A model generated the notes under the pieces. That model saw nothing but the letters and a program-made list of their open reading frames with translations. It ran no database searches and was not told the DNA's origin. Of a stretch of 55,570 nucleotides of DNA, positions 44,004 to 48,711 are shown piece by piece. The stretch comes from Terriglobales bacterium. GTDB lineage: Bacteria; Acidobacteriota; Terriglobia; Terriglobales; Acidobacteriaceae. Position 1 is the stretch's first letter. Each line of letters starts with the position of its first letter. Made by a program: the position numbers and the translations under genes. The stretch spans positions 1-55,570 of the forward strand of contig DASSIZ010000064.1 of NCBI GenBank assembly GCA_035691485.1, written 5' to 3'.

Positions 44004-45068
44004 TTGAACGTGGTCCCGAGATTCCAAATCCGGCGCGTGGCGAGCGTTCTCGGCGCCATCCTGCTCATGGCCTTATTGTCTCTGCCGGCATGCAAGCGAG
44101 GCGGAGGCAAGCAGGCGGAGATCGCTTACGTGTCGGTACCGCAGGCGAACCTGCGCGACCGCATCGCAGCCGTGTACAGCAAGGCCGGGGTGGTACACAA
44201 CGCGGAGCGGGTCGAGGTGCTGGAGAAGAGCCGCCGGTTTCTCAAAGTGAAGACCGAGCGCGGCGAGATTGGCTGGATCGAAGAGCGCTACGTGGTAGAC
44301 GCCAGCGTCTATGACGGGTTTCAGAAGCTCGCCCGGGAAAATGCGAAGTACCCGGTGCAGGCACATGGGACCACGCGCGTGACCCTCAACATGCACCTCA
44401 CCGCTGGACGCGACTCCGAGCACTTGTTCCAGATGCCGGACGGAGCCAAGGTTGAAGTGCTGAAGCGCGAAACGGCGGAAAAGCCGCAAACCAGGGTCAA
44501 TCCTTCCCAGCCCAAGATAGAAAAGCCGGGAGCCAAGAAGGCGGCGGCGAAGTCGGAGGAGACACCGGTATCTCGTGAAGACTGGCTGCTGGTGCGCGAC
44601 CCGGCCGGGCATACGGGTTGGGTACTGTCGCGCATGGTGGATCTGGACGTGCCGCTAGAGATCGCACAGTATTCCGAAGGGCAGAGAATAGTCGCCTACT
44701 TTGTGCTCAACCAGGTTGCGGACGGGGAGAAGAAGGTTTCCCAGTACCTGGTGCTGCTGACGGAAAACAAGGACGGCCTGGCGTGGGACTTCGACCAGGC
44801 GCGGATTTTCACCTGGAACGTGAAACGCCACCGCTATGAAACCGCGTATCGCGAGCGCAAACTGGTGGGCGTCTTTCCGGTAACCGTGGGCACCGCGGAC
44901 TTCGGAAAAGAGGGCGTGCTGCCTGCCTTTACGTTGCGAGTGAAAGACGACGACGGCAAAACCACGGAGCGGAAGTACAAGCTGAACGGCCCGATTGTTC
45001 GCCGAGTGCTCTCACCGGAGGAAGAACAGGCGAAGGCGCAAGCCAAGCCGGCGCGCCGGCGCAAATAA
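44004..45068 (+). CDS. SH3-domain lipoprotein
   Basis: 354 residues from TTG 44004; GTG 44010 is the alternative. A signal of about 28 residues ends in LSLPAC, a lipobox, so the cysteine near residue 30 is likely lipidated. Two SH3b-like domains follow: one around 40-100 (VPQANLRDRIAAVYSKAGVVHNAERVEVLEKSRRFLKVKT, GWIEERYV), and one split by a Lys/Pro/Ala linker around 120-215. The C-terminal 130 residues form a conserved beta domain of unknown role. It may sense or bind cell wall. Confidence 0.8.
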   Translation: MNVVPRFQIRRVASVLGAILLMALLSLPACKRGGGKQAEIAYVSVPQANLRDRIAAVYSKAGVVHNAERVEVLEKSRRFLKVKTERGEIGWIEERYVVDASVYDGFQKLARENAKYPVQAHGTTRVTLNMHLTAGRDSEHLFQMPDGAKVEVLKRETAEKPQTRVNPSQPKIEKPGAKKAAAKSEETPVSREDWLLVRDPAGHTGWVLSRMVDLDVPLEIAQYSEGQRIVAYFVLNQVADGEKKVSQYLVLLTENKDGLAWDFDQARIFTWNVKRHRYETAYRERKLVGVFPVTVGTADFGKEGVLPAFTLRVKDDDGKTTERKYKLNGPIVRRVLSPEEEQAKAQAKPARRRK

Positions 45069-45199: not shown

Positions 45200-45436
45200 A
45201 TGGCCGAAAAAGTCAAAAAGTTGAACCTGCCGCGGGATTACAAGAAATATCTCTATTTCATCGACGGCAACGGCAACATCTGCCAGAAACCAAAATCGGG
45301 AGAAGGCGACTCCCAGGTGCTGGTGGAAAACGCGGTGGAACGCGACAACCGCTTCCTCTATTTCATCGACAAAGATGGGGACGTAGCCCGCTCGGAGCGC
45401 GGCGCCAAGGGCAGCAAGAGCAAGAAAGTCGCCTGA
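45200..45436 (+). CDS. small protein with internal duplication, coupled to the PRTase-kinase gene
   Basis: 78 residues, with GGGAG upstream of the ATG. Two similar units are visible: YLYFIDGNGNICQKP (about 18-32) and FLYFIDKDGDVARSE (about 53-67). The DGNG/DKDG spacing hints at a metal or phosphate loop but no family is recognised. The tail is Lys/Ser-rich. Its TGA shares a base with the ATG of the next gene (TGATG), so translation is almost certainly coupled and the products probably act together. Confidence 0.78.
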   Translation: MAEKVKKLNLPRDYKKYLYFIDGNGNICQKPKSGEGDSQVLVENAVERDNRFLYFIDKDGDVARSERGAKGSKSKKVA

Positions 45437-47181
45437 TGGCCTCAAGAAATTCGTGCAACATGTGGGTGTTCCGCGAAGGGCGGAGCACCGCCAGCGGGAA
45501 AACTTCGCTTGCGGAATTGCAGGCCTCGCTTCCCGCCCATGCTTCACCCTCTCATGACCGGCTGGTGGACGCGCTGCTGCGCGCAGGAGAATTGGAATGC
45601 GCGCTGGCCGACGCCGACGCTGCCGATGCGCCGCTGGCCGCCAGCATTAACAGCAGCGTCGCGGCTGCGCTGGTGGGATTGCCCGGCAGCCTTGCAGGGC
45701 TGCGCGCCGCGAGGAAGACACTCGAACGAATTTCGGTTCCTGATGTCATTACAGTCTCGCCGCCGGAAGGCTTCGCCTATTACGCGGTCCATCCGCTCGA
45801 TTTTGCCGATCTTGCCGACAGCGCTCCGCTCCCGGAGAGTCAAGCGGCGCTGATTGGAATCCGCAGCATCGGAACCACGTTGAGCGCCGTGGTGGCGGCG
45901 GCGCTGCAGCGGCGAGGTGCGCGGGCGGAAAGGATCACGGTTCGTCCGGTGGGGCATCCGTATGATCGGCGAACCACGTTTTCACCGGACCAACTGCGCT
46001 GGATCGGGGCGCGTCGCGCCGCCGCGGCGGAATTTCTGGTTGTGGATGAAGGGCCGGGAATCAGCGGGTCGTCGTTCTTGTCGGTGGGCGACGCGCTGCT
46101 GGCGGCAGGCATAGCGCGCGAACGAATCACTTTCCTGTGCAGCCGCTACGCCGACCCTGAGTCACTGGCCGCCCGTGATGGCGCGTCACGCTGGCGGTCA
46201 TTTCATTCGAAGGTGGTTGAATCCACCCGGCGCACGCCCGCCGACCGCGGACCGTACATGGGCGGCGGGGAGTGGCGGCAGCGGTTTTATGGCGAGGAGT
46301 CGCACTGGCCGTCGTCATGGACCCAGATGGAGCGGCTGAAGTTCCTCTCTCGCGATGAACGGCGGATGTTCAAGTTCCACGGCATTGGCCGCTTCGGCAG
46401 CACTGTTGCAGATCGGGCGCGACGACTCGGCGAAGCCGGGTTTGGTCCGCGGCTGGTGGCCCATAGTTGCGGGTTCAGCGAATTGGAGATGGTGGAGGGC
46501 CGCCCGATGAATGCGGCGCGGGTTTCGGCCGCCGTGCTGGAGCGCGTGGCAGATTATTGCGCGCTGCGCGCGGTCGAGTTCGAAAGTGCCCGGACGCAGC
46601 CATCGCAGCTCGACGCCATGGTTCGCTTCAATGTTGGTGAGGAATTCGGCAGCCGCATGGCGAGCGGAGTGCCGCCGCTCCCTACCGAGCGGCTGGTGAT
46701 TGCCGACGGCCGCATGCTGCCGCACGAGTGGATCAGCACGCCCGCTGGGGCGTTAATCAAGACCGATGGCGCAACTCACGGTGATGATCATTTTTTCCCT
46801 GGGCCGGTGGACATCGCTTGGGATCTTGCCGGCGCGATCGTGGAGTGGGGAATGACGTCGGCGGCGGCCCACTTCATGCTGGCGCACTACCGGAAACGCA
46901 GCGGCGACGATGTTAGCTCACGGGTGGAAGCGTACCTGCTCGCCTACAGTGTTTTTCGCATGGCGTATTGCGCGATGGCGGCGTTTTCGATGCGCGGTTC
47001 GCAGGAGGAAACCAGGTTGCGGTACGCGACGGCGCATTATCGCAACCTGGTGGAAGCGGAGCTCAAGGCGCCAGGCTTGAGGCCACAGGCTTCAGGAGAG
47101 CGGAATCCGCAGTGGAGGCAGAGGACCGGCAAGGTCGAGAGCGCCCTGGCACTGGGCGATGGTGGAGCGAATCCCCGCTAG
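45436..47181 (+). CDS. phosphoribosyltransferase-like and kinase-like fusion protein
   Basis: 581 residues. The middle part has PRTase features: GIRSIGTTLSAVVAAALQRRG (PPi-loop region, about 137-157), TVRPVGHPYDRR, and the PRPP motif VVDEGPGISGSS at 202-213. The second half has kinase-like traits: KFHGIGRFGSTV near 315, a hinge-like ELEMVEGRPM near 352, and THGDDHFFPGPVDIAWDLAG near 446-466, resembling the metal-binding segment of aminoglycoside-phosphotransferase folds. So it may first attach or remove a ribose phosphate and then phosphorylate. The last 30 residues come after a heptamer repeat and lie antisense to DUF309 coding sequence, and may be an accidental extension. Confidence 0.72.
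   Translation: MASRNSCNMWVFREGRSTASGKTSLAELQASLPAHASPSHDRLVDALLRAGELECALADADAADAPLAASINSSVAAALVGLPGSLAGLRAARKTLERISVPDVITVSPPEGFAYYAVHPLDFADLADSAPLPESQAALIGIRSIGTTLSAVVAAALQRRGARAERITVRPVGHPYDRRTTFSPDQLRWIGARRAAAAEFLVVDEGPGISGSSFLSVGDALLAAGIARERITFLCSRYADPESLAARDGASRWRSFHSKVVESTRRTPADRGPYMGGGEWRQRFYGEESHWPSSWTQMERLKFLSRDERRMFKFHGIGRFGSTVADRARRLGEAGFGPRLVAHSCGFSELEMVEGRPMNAARVSAAVLERVADYCALRAVEFESARTQPSQLDAMVRFNVGEEFGSRMASGVPPLPTERLVIADGRMLPHEWISTPAGALIKTDGATHGDDHFFPGPVDIAWDLAGAIVEWGMTSAAAHFMLAHYRKRSGDDVSSRVEAYLLAYSVFRMAYCAMAAFSMRGSQEETRLRYATAHYRNLVEAELKAPGLRPQASGERNPQWRQRTGKVESALALGDGGANPR
47065..47102. repeat. heptamer repeat within the 3' part of the fusion gene
   Basis: aaggcgc, caggctt, gaggcca, caggctt, cagg run in seven-base register. 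It lies between the last conserved part of the fusion protein and the DUF309 stop, i.e. where a spacer would be expected. Confidence 0.55.
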
Positions 47182-47430
47182 ATCCACGCCCGCGTAGGAT
47201 TCCGGATAATCGGAGAGATTGCGCAGCGCGCGGGCGAGCAGCGAGCGCGCACCGCGGAGATTTCCGCGGCCGTGGTGATGCAGCGCGACCGCCACCTGGA
47301 TCATCCCCTGCAGGAATTTTTTCTCATCCGCGGGCGCAGCGCGCCACACGTCTTCCCAGACTTCGTGCGCGTCGAAATACTCGCGCGAGTTGAACAACTC
47401 CAGACCGCGCTGGAATTCCTGCAGGTTCAT
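47092..47430 (-). CDS. DUF309 family protein
   Basis: 112 residues. LFNSREYFDAHEVWEDVWRAAP and KKFLQGMIQVAVALHHHGRGN, then ARSLLARALRNLSDYP, are the DUF309 hallmarks, with conserved histidine and glutamate residues in HEVWE. Function unknown; a hydrolase-like helical bundle is often suggested. The start overlaps the preceding stop by four bases, and the last 90 bases overlap the opposite fusion gene. Confidence 0.9.
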   Translation of the reverse strand: MNLQEFQRGLELFNSREYFDAHEVWEDVWRAAPADEKKFLQGMIQVAVALHHHGRGNLRGARSLLARALRNLSDYPESYAGVDLAGIRSTIAQCQGALDLAGPLPPLRIPLS

Positions 47431-48179
47431 TTGCCAAACATGGGGTAATGGCTGGCTGCGCCCATGAAGAACAGCATGAAGAACGACACCACGAAGTTCA
47501 AGCGCGAGGCGAGAAATGCCAGGCGCGCCTGTTTTGCCAAGGCAGGGGGCATGGCGCCGCCGGGATTCTCGGAAGTCCAGCGGATGATCTTCTTCTGCAT
47601 GCGCCAGACCACGCCCCAGACGTTCAACATCATGAACCATCCGATGCCGCCGCCAATGCCGATAGAGAGCAGACGATTGCTCTCCCAGCCATCGTTGTTG
47701 ATCGCCAGGTAGAGGTAAGCCGCGGCGAAGACGGCGACACCGCAGATGAGGCCGAATACGGCGCCTTTGCGCAAGACTTCGGCTGGCGACATCAGCGCGC
47801 CCATTTCGATGGCGAAAGCCACCGTCCAGATCAGGAAGAAACTCCAAATGGCGGTGCCGGGCGAAGCATTGCCGTTGCGCGCATCGGTGGTGACGATGTT
47901 CATCCAGTAGGAAATTCCTGCCAGCACGGTGACCACCGAGGCCCAGCGGAACCACCACAGCGCGCGCGTCATCAGCGGGGGAACCACGCGGGAGCGGGTT
48001 GGACCGTCCAATTCCTTGAGCAAGGGAACACTCACCAGGTTGAAAAAATAGAGGAGCCCGATCCAGGTGATGCCGGCCAGGAAATGGATCCAGCGAACCA
48101 GCATCAGGACGTTGGCGGCACTCCCTTCGGGCAGTGAAACGTGGACCTGGAAGACGGCGATGGCAGGCGCGATGGGCAC
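47427..48179 (-). CDS. PuuD-like (urate oxidase N-terminal type) membrane protein
   Basis: 250 residues from GTG 48179, which has AGGAGG at the right distance; the open frame continues to 48470 without conserved features. Seven or so helices are seen. LVRWIHFLAGITWIGLLYFFNLVSVPLL and RALWWFRWASVVTVLAGISYWM match the urate_ox_N domain. PuuD oxidises urate with a C-terminal cytochrome c, which is absent here, so urate oxidation is unproven. DUF309 is translationally coupled downstream. Confidence 0.75.
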   Translation of the reverse strand: MPIAPAIAVFQVHVSLPEGSAANVLMLVRWIHFLAGITWIGLLYFFNLVSVPLLKELDGPTRSRVVPPLMTRALWWFRWASVVTVLAGISYWMNIVTTDARNGNASPGTAIWSFFLIWTVAFAIEMGALMSPAEVLRKGAVFGLICGVAVFAAAYLYLAINNDGWESNRLLSIGIGGGIGWFMMLNVWGVVWRMQKKIIRWTSENPGGAMPPALAKQARLAFLASRLNFVVSFFMLFFMGAASHYPMFGK

Positions 48180-48396
48180 GAATCCTCCTGCGAGTAGCGG
48201 GCGCGGAGCGCCGGGGCACGAACTCGGATCTTCTGCCCGCGACGGGAGCACGGGAATTCTAGCAGAGCAAAAATAATGTTCCGGAGGTTGAAAAGCGACG
48301 CAGGCCGCCGTATCGTAGGGGCGCTGTTTGGGTCTGGTGGGAGCCTCGGCCCCGTGTTGGGGGCGTGTCGGTTCTTTGACAAAAGGAGATCGGCAG

Positions 48397-48711
48397 ATGG
48401 ACAAGCCGGCGCAGAACATCCAGGATTCCTTTCTCAACACCGCCCGCAAAGACAAAGCGACGATCACCATCTATTTGCTCAGCGGGGTGAAGCTGACGGG
48501 ACGCATCCGGTCGTTTGACAAGTATTCGGTCGTGCTCGAAACCAACAACCAGGAGCAGCTCATCTTCAAGCATGCGATTTCGACGGTGGTGATGGGCAAG
48601 AGCGCGCACCCAATCGAGCGGCATGAATTGCGGCCAATGCCGGGTGAAACCAAGCCGGCCCCAGCACATCCCGGCGAGCAGGTCACCACGCCGTCCGGCA
48701 CGGAAGGGTAA
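48397..48711 (+). CDS. hfq: RNA chaperone Hfq
   Basis: 104 residues from ATG 48397 with AAAAGGAGA upstream. Canonical Hfq: [31 protein letters not shown] is the N-helix and Sm1, [10 protein letters not shown] the middle strands, and FKHAISTV the Sm2. A 35-residue Pro-rich tail follows. It forms a hexamer that pairs sRNAs with mRNAs. hflX follows nine bases later, as in many bacteria. Confidence 0.96.

Follow-up and report, generated by a model that had tools for sequence, protein, structure and literature searches.

What does a protein do that joins a phosphoribosyltransferase (PRTase)-like half to a kinase-like half, and with which genes does it work? The question is raised by a gene pair in a 55,570-nucleotide stretch of DNA from a Terriglobales bacterium (assembly GCA_035691485.1, contig DASSIZ010000064.1, positions 1 to 55,570; the whole stretch is called the window here), in which two open reading frames (ORFs) follow one another:

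45200–45436, + strand: 78-residue small protein carrying the YFID-x-[ND]-G unit twice, a companion seen, among the genomes searched, only in Acidobacteriota
45436–47181, + strand: 581-residue PRTase/kinase-fold fusion protein

The pair, to which a first-pass annotation had drawn attention, exists as described there, the two genes overlapping by one base (the TGA at 45434–45436 ends on the first base of the ATG at 45436–45438), and since homologs of both proteins occur across genomes, these are not chance ORFs. The membership of the fusion in the pathway of a saccharide cassette marked by the families TIGR04290 and TIGR04295 is well supported, by gene neighbourhoods in other phyla and by co-occurrence in the window's own lineage. 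Most likely, the fusion performs a phosphoribosyl pyrophosphate (PRPP)-dependent step in making an (oligo)saccharide, a chemistry suggested by predicted folds and conserved residues. With moderate confidence, we thus propose a two-domain, PRPP-using enzyme of an uncharacterised saccharide-assembly pathway.

Association of the fusion gene with a saccharide cassette

A collection scan returned 349 stretches coding for a relative of the fusion, the best 80 of which were retained as loci with flanks of at most 8 kb each, and the flanking genes were named from Pfam and NCBIfam scans of representatives, plus record annotation. TIGR04290 occurs in 18 of these 80 loci, TIGR04295 in 8, and one or both in 25, while a histidine phosphatase lies in 14; all 40 candidates (18 TIGR04290, 8 TIGR04295, 14 TIGR03848) were confirmed with NCBIfam at E ≤ 1e-30. 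We also tallied 84 loci, made up of the 80 and four plasmid regions, two of which are the same Sinorhizobium meliloti site in two strains. Here, glycosyltransferases are found in 39 loci, a glycoside-hydrolase-like (GH-like) gene in 25, the TIGR04290 methyltransferase in 22, histidine phosphatase and nucleotidyltransferase in 18 each, epimerases in 15, an acetyltransferase in 13, a PIG-L deacetylase in 10, the TIGR04295 B12-radical-SAM protein in 9, and INO1 in 5. The GH-like name is a weak one (Pfam E 0.0009, under cut-off, with no Pfam match for the S. meliloti copy; 'beta-xylosidase' in annotation). In Azospirillum brasilense, INO1 (myo-inositol-phosphate synthase), histidine phosphatase, TIGR04290, beta-xylosidase and, last, the fusion gene form a same-strand run, and in Roseomonas mucosa such a run holds INO1, histidine phosphatase, two glycosyltransferases, a UDP-glucuronic acid decarboxylase and the fusion, with two hypothetical genes after it. 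Most of those cassette genes also surround the fusion gene in S. meliloti.

At three loci (L047, L107 and L111; two Rubellimicrobium, one Acidobacteriota), flank genes resemble, by eye, malto-oligosyltrehalose enzymes, and such neighbours may hint at a stress-protectant role.

In the window's lineage, the association takes the form of co-occurrence. Among 100 genomes, the window's own included, 32 have fusion matches and 29 of those carry the two-domain gene; the three left out of the latter count are G032 and G087, whose matches are solely a distant protein of about 1000 residues, and G054. Outside the window genome, the panel homologs are 35–51% identical to the fusion, mostly near full length; a few matches are broken by contig ends or split in two, and that in G056 has one internal TGA. 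TIGR04295, counted at E ≤ 1e-60 (which takes in G073, under the family cut-off), is found in 26 of the 29 genomes with the fusion and in 1 of the 71 without it (Fisher p 1.4e-19). For the GH-like gene (E < 1e-50; relaxing this to E ≤ 1e-20 brings in G087, which lacks the fusion), the counts are 26/29 and 2/71 (p 1.8e-18), and for TIGR04290 matches over the family cut-off they are 25/29 and 2/71 (p 3.1e-17), becoming 26/29 and 6/71 at the looser E ≤ 1e-40, which adds G072 (with the fusion) and G075, G079, G088 and G095 (without). At the stricter thresholds, at least one of these three markers is present in all 29 fusion genomes, compared with 2 of the 71 without the fusion, and 22 of the 29 carry all three. 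Counting only the 60 genomes that belong to the window's own family, TIGR04295 is present in 15/15 with the fusion versus 1/45 without, and 14 control genomes gave no match to TIGR04290 or TIGR04295. INO1, used as a comparison gene, shows no association (29/29 vs 63/71, p 0.10) and, being found in 92 of the 100 genomes, was discarded as an uninformative marker, as was TIGR03848, detected at E ≤ 1e-25 in 2 of the 100, neither with the fusion.

In the window genome, the fusion gene (contig C64) is unlinked to the cassette, with TIGR04295 on C74 and TIGR04290 on C117. The end of C74 and the start of C117 (L177, L178) each seem to hold part of one GH-like cassette gene, a split suggesting that the two contigs are neighbours and that this genome keeps the cassette in a single block. 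In G054, a fusion-gene fragment with an internal TGA (L030, G054:C379:60372-60764) is apparently a decayed copy, and this genome has none of the three cassette markers.

The family is broadly distributed. A 76-sequence tree spans nine phyla (Acidobacteriota, Myxococcota, Chloroflexota, Pseudomonadota, Gemmatimonadota, Nitrospirota, Planctomycetota, Thermodesulfobacteriota and Fibrobacterota), and members are found in S. meliloti 1021 pSymB (NC_003078.1, 253338–255086, minus strand, with a TIGR04290 methyltransferase gene as neighbour), Azospirillum, Methylobacterium, Microvirga and Sorangium, among others; the nearest named homologs are acidobacterial, in line with the window's own lineage. 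The fusion matched 89 plasmid records, 66 from Sinorhizobium and the remainder from Roseomonas, Azospirillum, Rhizobium, Ensifer and Ciceribacter, and no phage record. In Pfam and NCBIfam, no model scored above cut-off for the window fusion, and a PDB sequence search with it gave nothing useful; eIF_4EBP (Pfam 0.17, PDB 0.11) was dismissed as weak or under cut-off. Neither window protein matched a PADLOC model at E ≤ 1, and an anti-phage defence reading of the pair was rejected on that ground.

Predicted folds and conserved residues of the two halves

The AlphaFold2 model of the whole fusion (predicted local distance difference test, pLDDT, 92.3; predicted template modelling score 0.91) and its alignment with homologs delimit the following features:

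45448–45762, + strand: N-terminal region, residues 5–109, mostly helical in the predicted structure, no assignment
45763–46224, + strand: type I PRTase-fold domain, residues 110–263 (predicted structure, VIA)
46039–46074, + strand: PRPP-loop-like segment VVDEGPGISGSS, residues 202–213 (alignment of 76)
46216–47082, + strand: choline-kinase/APH-fold domain, residues 261–549 (predicted structure)
46702–46731, + strand: catalytic-loop position ADGRMLPHEW, residues 423–432, with R426 at the Asp and E431 at the Asn position
46759–46824, + strand: K442-x-D444...H448...W462-D463, all five residues invariant in 76/76, D444 at the metal-Asp position

The alignment (A2) comprises the window and 75 of the 80 collection loci, 76 rows in all, omitting L069, L078, L083, L099 and L115 as too long, split or partial; a further alignment (A4) keeps 74 of these rows, without L059 and L065. 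Both the PRTase-like and the kinase-like fold proposed in the first-pass annotation are borne out by the predicted structures. For residues 110–263, a type I PRTase fold is supported by the model: the N-terminal half folded alone reaches a pLDDT of 93.7, the best VIA match is a PyrR (Z 12.9, root-mean-square deviation 2.8 over 131 residues), and, among the 50 VIA rows listed, 46 have titles that name a PRTase, PyrR or PRPP synthetase, the titles of the other 4 naming no such function. The acidic pair and phosphate loop expected after the third strand are present, with Glu as the second acid and a variant loop where the usual PRTase loop is of the DD..TGGT type. In VVDEGPGISGSS, D204, E205, G206, P207, G208, S210, G211 and S212 are invariant across the 76 rows, as are G141, R143, G146, R170 and R178 elsewhere in this half, the pattern expected of a working PRPP site. 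Pfam Pribosyltran gave no match to the window protein at E ≤ 5, nor to the 76 members at E ≤ 1.

A distant family of about 1000 residues (L031:5404-8370, L032:4619-7702 and L033:4257-7190) combines PRTase, kinase-fold and HAD domains, aligning with the fusion core over 390 columns (hhalign probability 99.6%) and ending in a C-terminal HAD phosphatase (Pfam Hydrolase_3, over cut-off). The HAD-fused L032 is the only relative to touch Pribosyltran (E 0.0073), and it also touches UPRTase (E 0.0022), both under cut-off. The fused HAD, together with the histidine phosphatase near the gene in 14 of the 80 loci, suggests that in those lineages a dephosphorylation would follow the phosphoribosyl transfer. 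Four genes flanking L032 and L033 are conserved at 58–70% identity; judged by eye, one encodes a condensation-domain protein, two encode alpha/beta hydrolases (one Pfam-confirmed) and one a flippase.

In the second half, VIA aligns residues 261–549 with choline kinases and APH enzymes (best Z 18.7, root-mean-square deviation 3.7 over 253 residues), Foldseek finds LicA at E 1.9e-7, and the fusion-family profile picks up LicA at the WDLA segment (E 0.032). The predicted order of strand 420–422, loop 423–431, strand 432–434, strand 440–442 and D444 mirrors the catalytic segment of kinases, while the canonical HxDxxxxN loop is missing. In canonical kinases, the residue just before the second strand is Asn; here E431 directly precedes that strand, and R426, five residues before E431, takes the position of the catalytic Asp. 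Across the 76 rows, the Asp position holds R in 67, H in 6 and K in 3, and the Asn position E in 73, D in 2 and K in 1, whereas D424, W432, K442, D444, H448, W462 and D463 do not vary at all, and 74 rows have K or R at residue 313. The same altered pattern is seen in the protein of S. meliloti 1021 (DNRLHRWEW, KTDALDH). Since hhalign with a few canonical APH proteins from relatives gave no alignment (probability 0.1), the residue equivalence of the loop is model-based, drawn from the order and spacing of the predicted strands together with the LicA match at WDLA; in Pfam, one of the 76 members touches APH (E 0.005) and one Choline_kinase (E 0.31). The segment THGDDHFFPGPVDIAW (residues 447–462), which the annotation had singled out as kinase-like, does lie within the kinase fold, placed after the metal-binding Asp and not at the catalytic loop. 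As the canonical loop is replaced, with the Asp position altered in 76/76 rows, the ordinary phosphorylation that had been suggested is doubtful on this model, in which 'kinase' names a predicted fold, not an activity. At the G063 locus, the fusion gene is followed, about 1 kb downstream, by the gene for a canonical APH-family kinase with HGDLTFDN (L136, G063:C36:16175-16855), making an ordinary kinase available there.

The small protein and alternative explanations

The small protein, whose units read YFIDGNGN and YFIDKDGD, does carry two repeats as first noticed, in a pattern looser than the YFID-D-DG originally given. It is 49–76% identical to 19 aligned homologs and has no Pfam, NCBIfam or PADLOC match above cut-off; Ntox33 (0.012) and SSSPR-51 (0.097) were dismissed as weak or under cut-off. 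The family profile run on the window genome at E ≤ 10 recovers only the known copy and thus no paralog, and a strict DNA pattern matched 8 of 61 genomes, each time within an already known small-protein gene. The search space for this protein was the 100-genome panel plus the flanks retained for the 80 loci; it is found in 17 genomes, 15 of which also have the fusion (p 3e-8), and in 18 loci, every one titled Acidobacteriota; 16 of these have it directly upstream of the fusion gene, while in L049 and L056 it lies apart, on the opposite strand. Around the window pair, the fusion gene sits between an SH3-domain gene and a gene that we take to be DUF309-like:

44004–45068, + strand: SH3_3-domain protein upstream, marking the syntenic site; a flanking gene, no pathway role claimed

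In close relatives, where recurrence of the pair had been expected, the outcome is mixed: it recurs in nine more genomes of this family and in five belonging to a second one, but the same-genus G001–G003 keep the SH3 and DUF309-like neighbours and lack both members at this otherwise conserved site (about 120–145 bp separate the flanking matches in G001 and G003, and G002 has a different ORF in that place). G049 keeps the SH3 gene, the small protein and DegT, with the fusion gone and no cassette marker, and G043 has the small protein in another context, without the fusion. A minus-strand 375-residue ORF (47092–48219) seems to extend beyond the true gene that it contains: the C-terminal third gives a conserved match of its own, DUF309-like, and the N-terminal part overlaps ORF 47427–48470 in a different frame.

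The small protein is thus neither general nor strictly fusion-dependent. That the fusion cannot do without it as a carrier, cofactor or activator, much as the first-pass annotation had supposed, would fit the one-base overlap, the strong statistical association and the joint loss of both genes in G001–G003, but we consider this improbable given that it stands directly upstream in just 15 of the 29 fusion-bearing genomes, is absent from the other 14 and from most loci, is confined to Acidobacteriota there, and is retained in G043 and G049, which lack the fusion; nor does it always precede the fusion, the question that a neighbourhood survey had been meant to answer. It is probably an accessory in the window's lineage, and such a lineage-specific small neighbour gene should not count as part of the core system.

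Several findings weigh against a PRPP-using enzyme of the cassette pathway. Neither TIGR04290 nor TIGR04295 lies in the fetched flank of 55 of the 80 loci, although many flanks stop at contig ends, and G046 and G004 have cassette markers without the fusion, the sole such genomes at the thresholds used. Shared ancestry makes the Fisher values look more independent than they are; the cassette linkage in other phyla serves as the independent support. At E ≤ 1e-25, the TIGR03848 phosphatase is absent from all 29 fusion genomes, the window's included, leaving the dephosphorylation step unsupported in them. For the N-terminal half, Foldseek returned nothing at E ≤ 0.001, its top rows being a dioxygenase (E 0.0037, template modelling score 0.24) and its best PRTase a UPRT at only E 0.022, and a profile search of the PDB found no PRTase at E ≤ 5; the PRTase assignment therefore rests on the VIA alignment and the conserved residues.

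These points leave room for other functions. An active bifunctional enzyme of the kind first suggested, in which the PRTase half phosphoribosylates and the kinase half phosphorylates via displaced residues (e.g., D424 as base, E431 and D444 for metal), could draw on the invariance of D424, K442, D444 and H448 and the near-constant basic residue 313, which imply strong selection on the site, on a fold near that of choline kinases, and on the single members that touch Pfam APH and Choline_kinase. Because the Asp position of HxDxxxxN is R, H or K throughout and the Asn position is mostly Glu, we regard it as unlikely. Somewhat less likely still is a non-catalytic sensor or regulator, both halves of which would bind ligands, sense PRPP or nucleotide and control saccharide production, in the manner of PyrR: PyrR proteins head the VIA list, the kinase half has an altered loop, gene and cassette are unlinked in the window genome, and a response-regulator gene lies in the flank of 11 of the 80 loci (one representative Pfam-checked), but the PRPP-loop-like residues are invariant, the gene sits among biosynthetic genes in several phyla, and phosphatases are fused or close by in several lineages. 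Hardly credible is a place in a tellurium/Ter module for a nucleoside-like metabolite, a type of neighbourhood brought up at the outset; only the general idea that PRTases occur in such modules speaks for it, but no match to PRTase, TRSP or PELOTA models, presumably all part of Pfam, was obtained at E ≤ 5 (HMMER filters drop most weak matches), and three annotated plasmid neighbourhoods show saccharide genes and no Ter gene in gene tables that are incomplete. The recognisable neighbours are those of a saccharide pathway; a small metabolite as product, as originally imagined, is possible, and the context favours saccharide assembly.

A proposed PRPP-dependent step and comparison with known systems

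In the saccharide-assembly enzyme that we favour, the PRTase half would use PRPP or a similar ribose-phosphate donor to attach a phosphoribosyl group to an intermediate, either a saccharide or a cyclitol. An MSMEG_4193/CobC-like histidine phosphatase (where encoded nearby) or the fused HAD would then remove the 5-phosphate, leaving a ribosyl group. The kinase-fold half may bind the acceptor or a nucleotide, and non-standard chemistry is possible. In the window's lineage, the gene lies apart from the cassette and next to its probably accessory small protein. The fusion is a variant of known folds within an uncharacterised pathway. More tentatively, it might represent a new enzyme class, in which a PRTase and a kinase fold with a rebuilt active site (e.g., holding or activating a cyclitol or sugar acceptor) install a ribofuranosyl unit on a previously unknown pseudo-oligosaccharide; the producers would be soil- and plant-associated bacteria drawn from nine phyla or more, and the phosphatase would be supplied by a fused HAD, a nearby histidine phosphatase or an unlinked general enzyme.

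Literature searches on the cassette families, the pSymB locus and PRTase/pseudokinase fusions gave, at the level of titles and abstracts, no account of the cassette or its product; PMC7824862 and PMC5512222, which hold 'phosphoribosyltransferase' and 'nucleoside-like metabolite', were judged unrelated from the title and the start of the abstract. An unannotated protein family gains a probable pathway, whose cassette is identifiable by two NCBIfam names only, and PRPP chemistry is marked as a likely step of that pathway. The family also offers for study a kinase fold whose catalytic loop is replaced systematically, and the presence of the family in a genetically tractable host makes the product testable.

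Compared with type I PRTases (PyrR, UPRT, HGPRT, APRT), the fusion is alike in predicted fold and in having a phosphate-type Gly/Ser loop after an acidic pair, but differs in the lack of a Pfam or PDB sequence match, in its DEGPGxSGSS motif and in the joined kinase fold. With choline kinase, LicA and APH, it shares the fold (Z 18.7), a WDLA-type helix and the metal-Asp position, but it has DxRMxPHE for HxDxxxxN and an extra HGDDHFF-type segment after the metal Asp. As for the TIGR04290/TIGR04295 cassette, the fusion gene lies near it in several phyla and co-occurs with it in Acidobacteriota, while the window protein itself matches no NCBIfam or Pfam model above cut-off. The proteins L031, L032 and L033 of about 1000 residues have the same two domains in the same order plus their own C-terminal HAD phosphatase, and L032 and L033 adjoin a flippase-like gene and condensation-domain-like ORFs (named by eye). 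In CobT/CobC and in butirosin BtrL/BtrP, phosphoribosyl transfer is followed by removal of the 5-phosphate; the pathway proposed for the fusion would share this logic by analogy only, with different enzymes and substrates.

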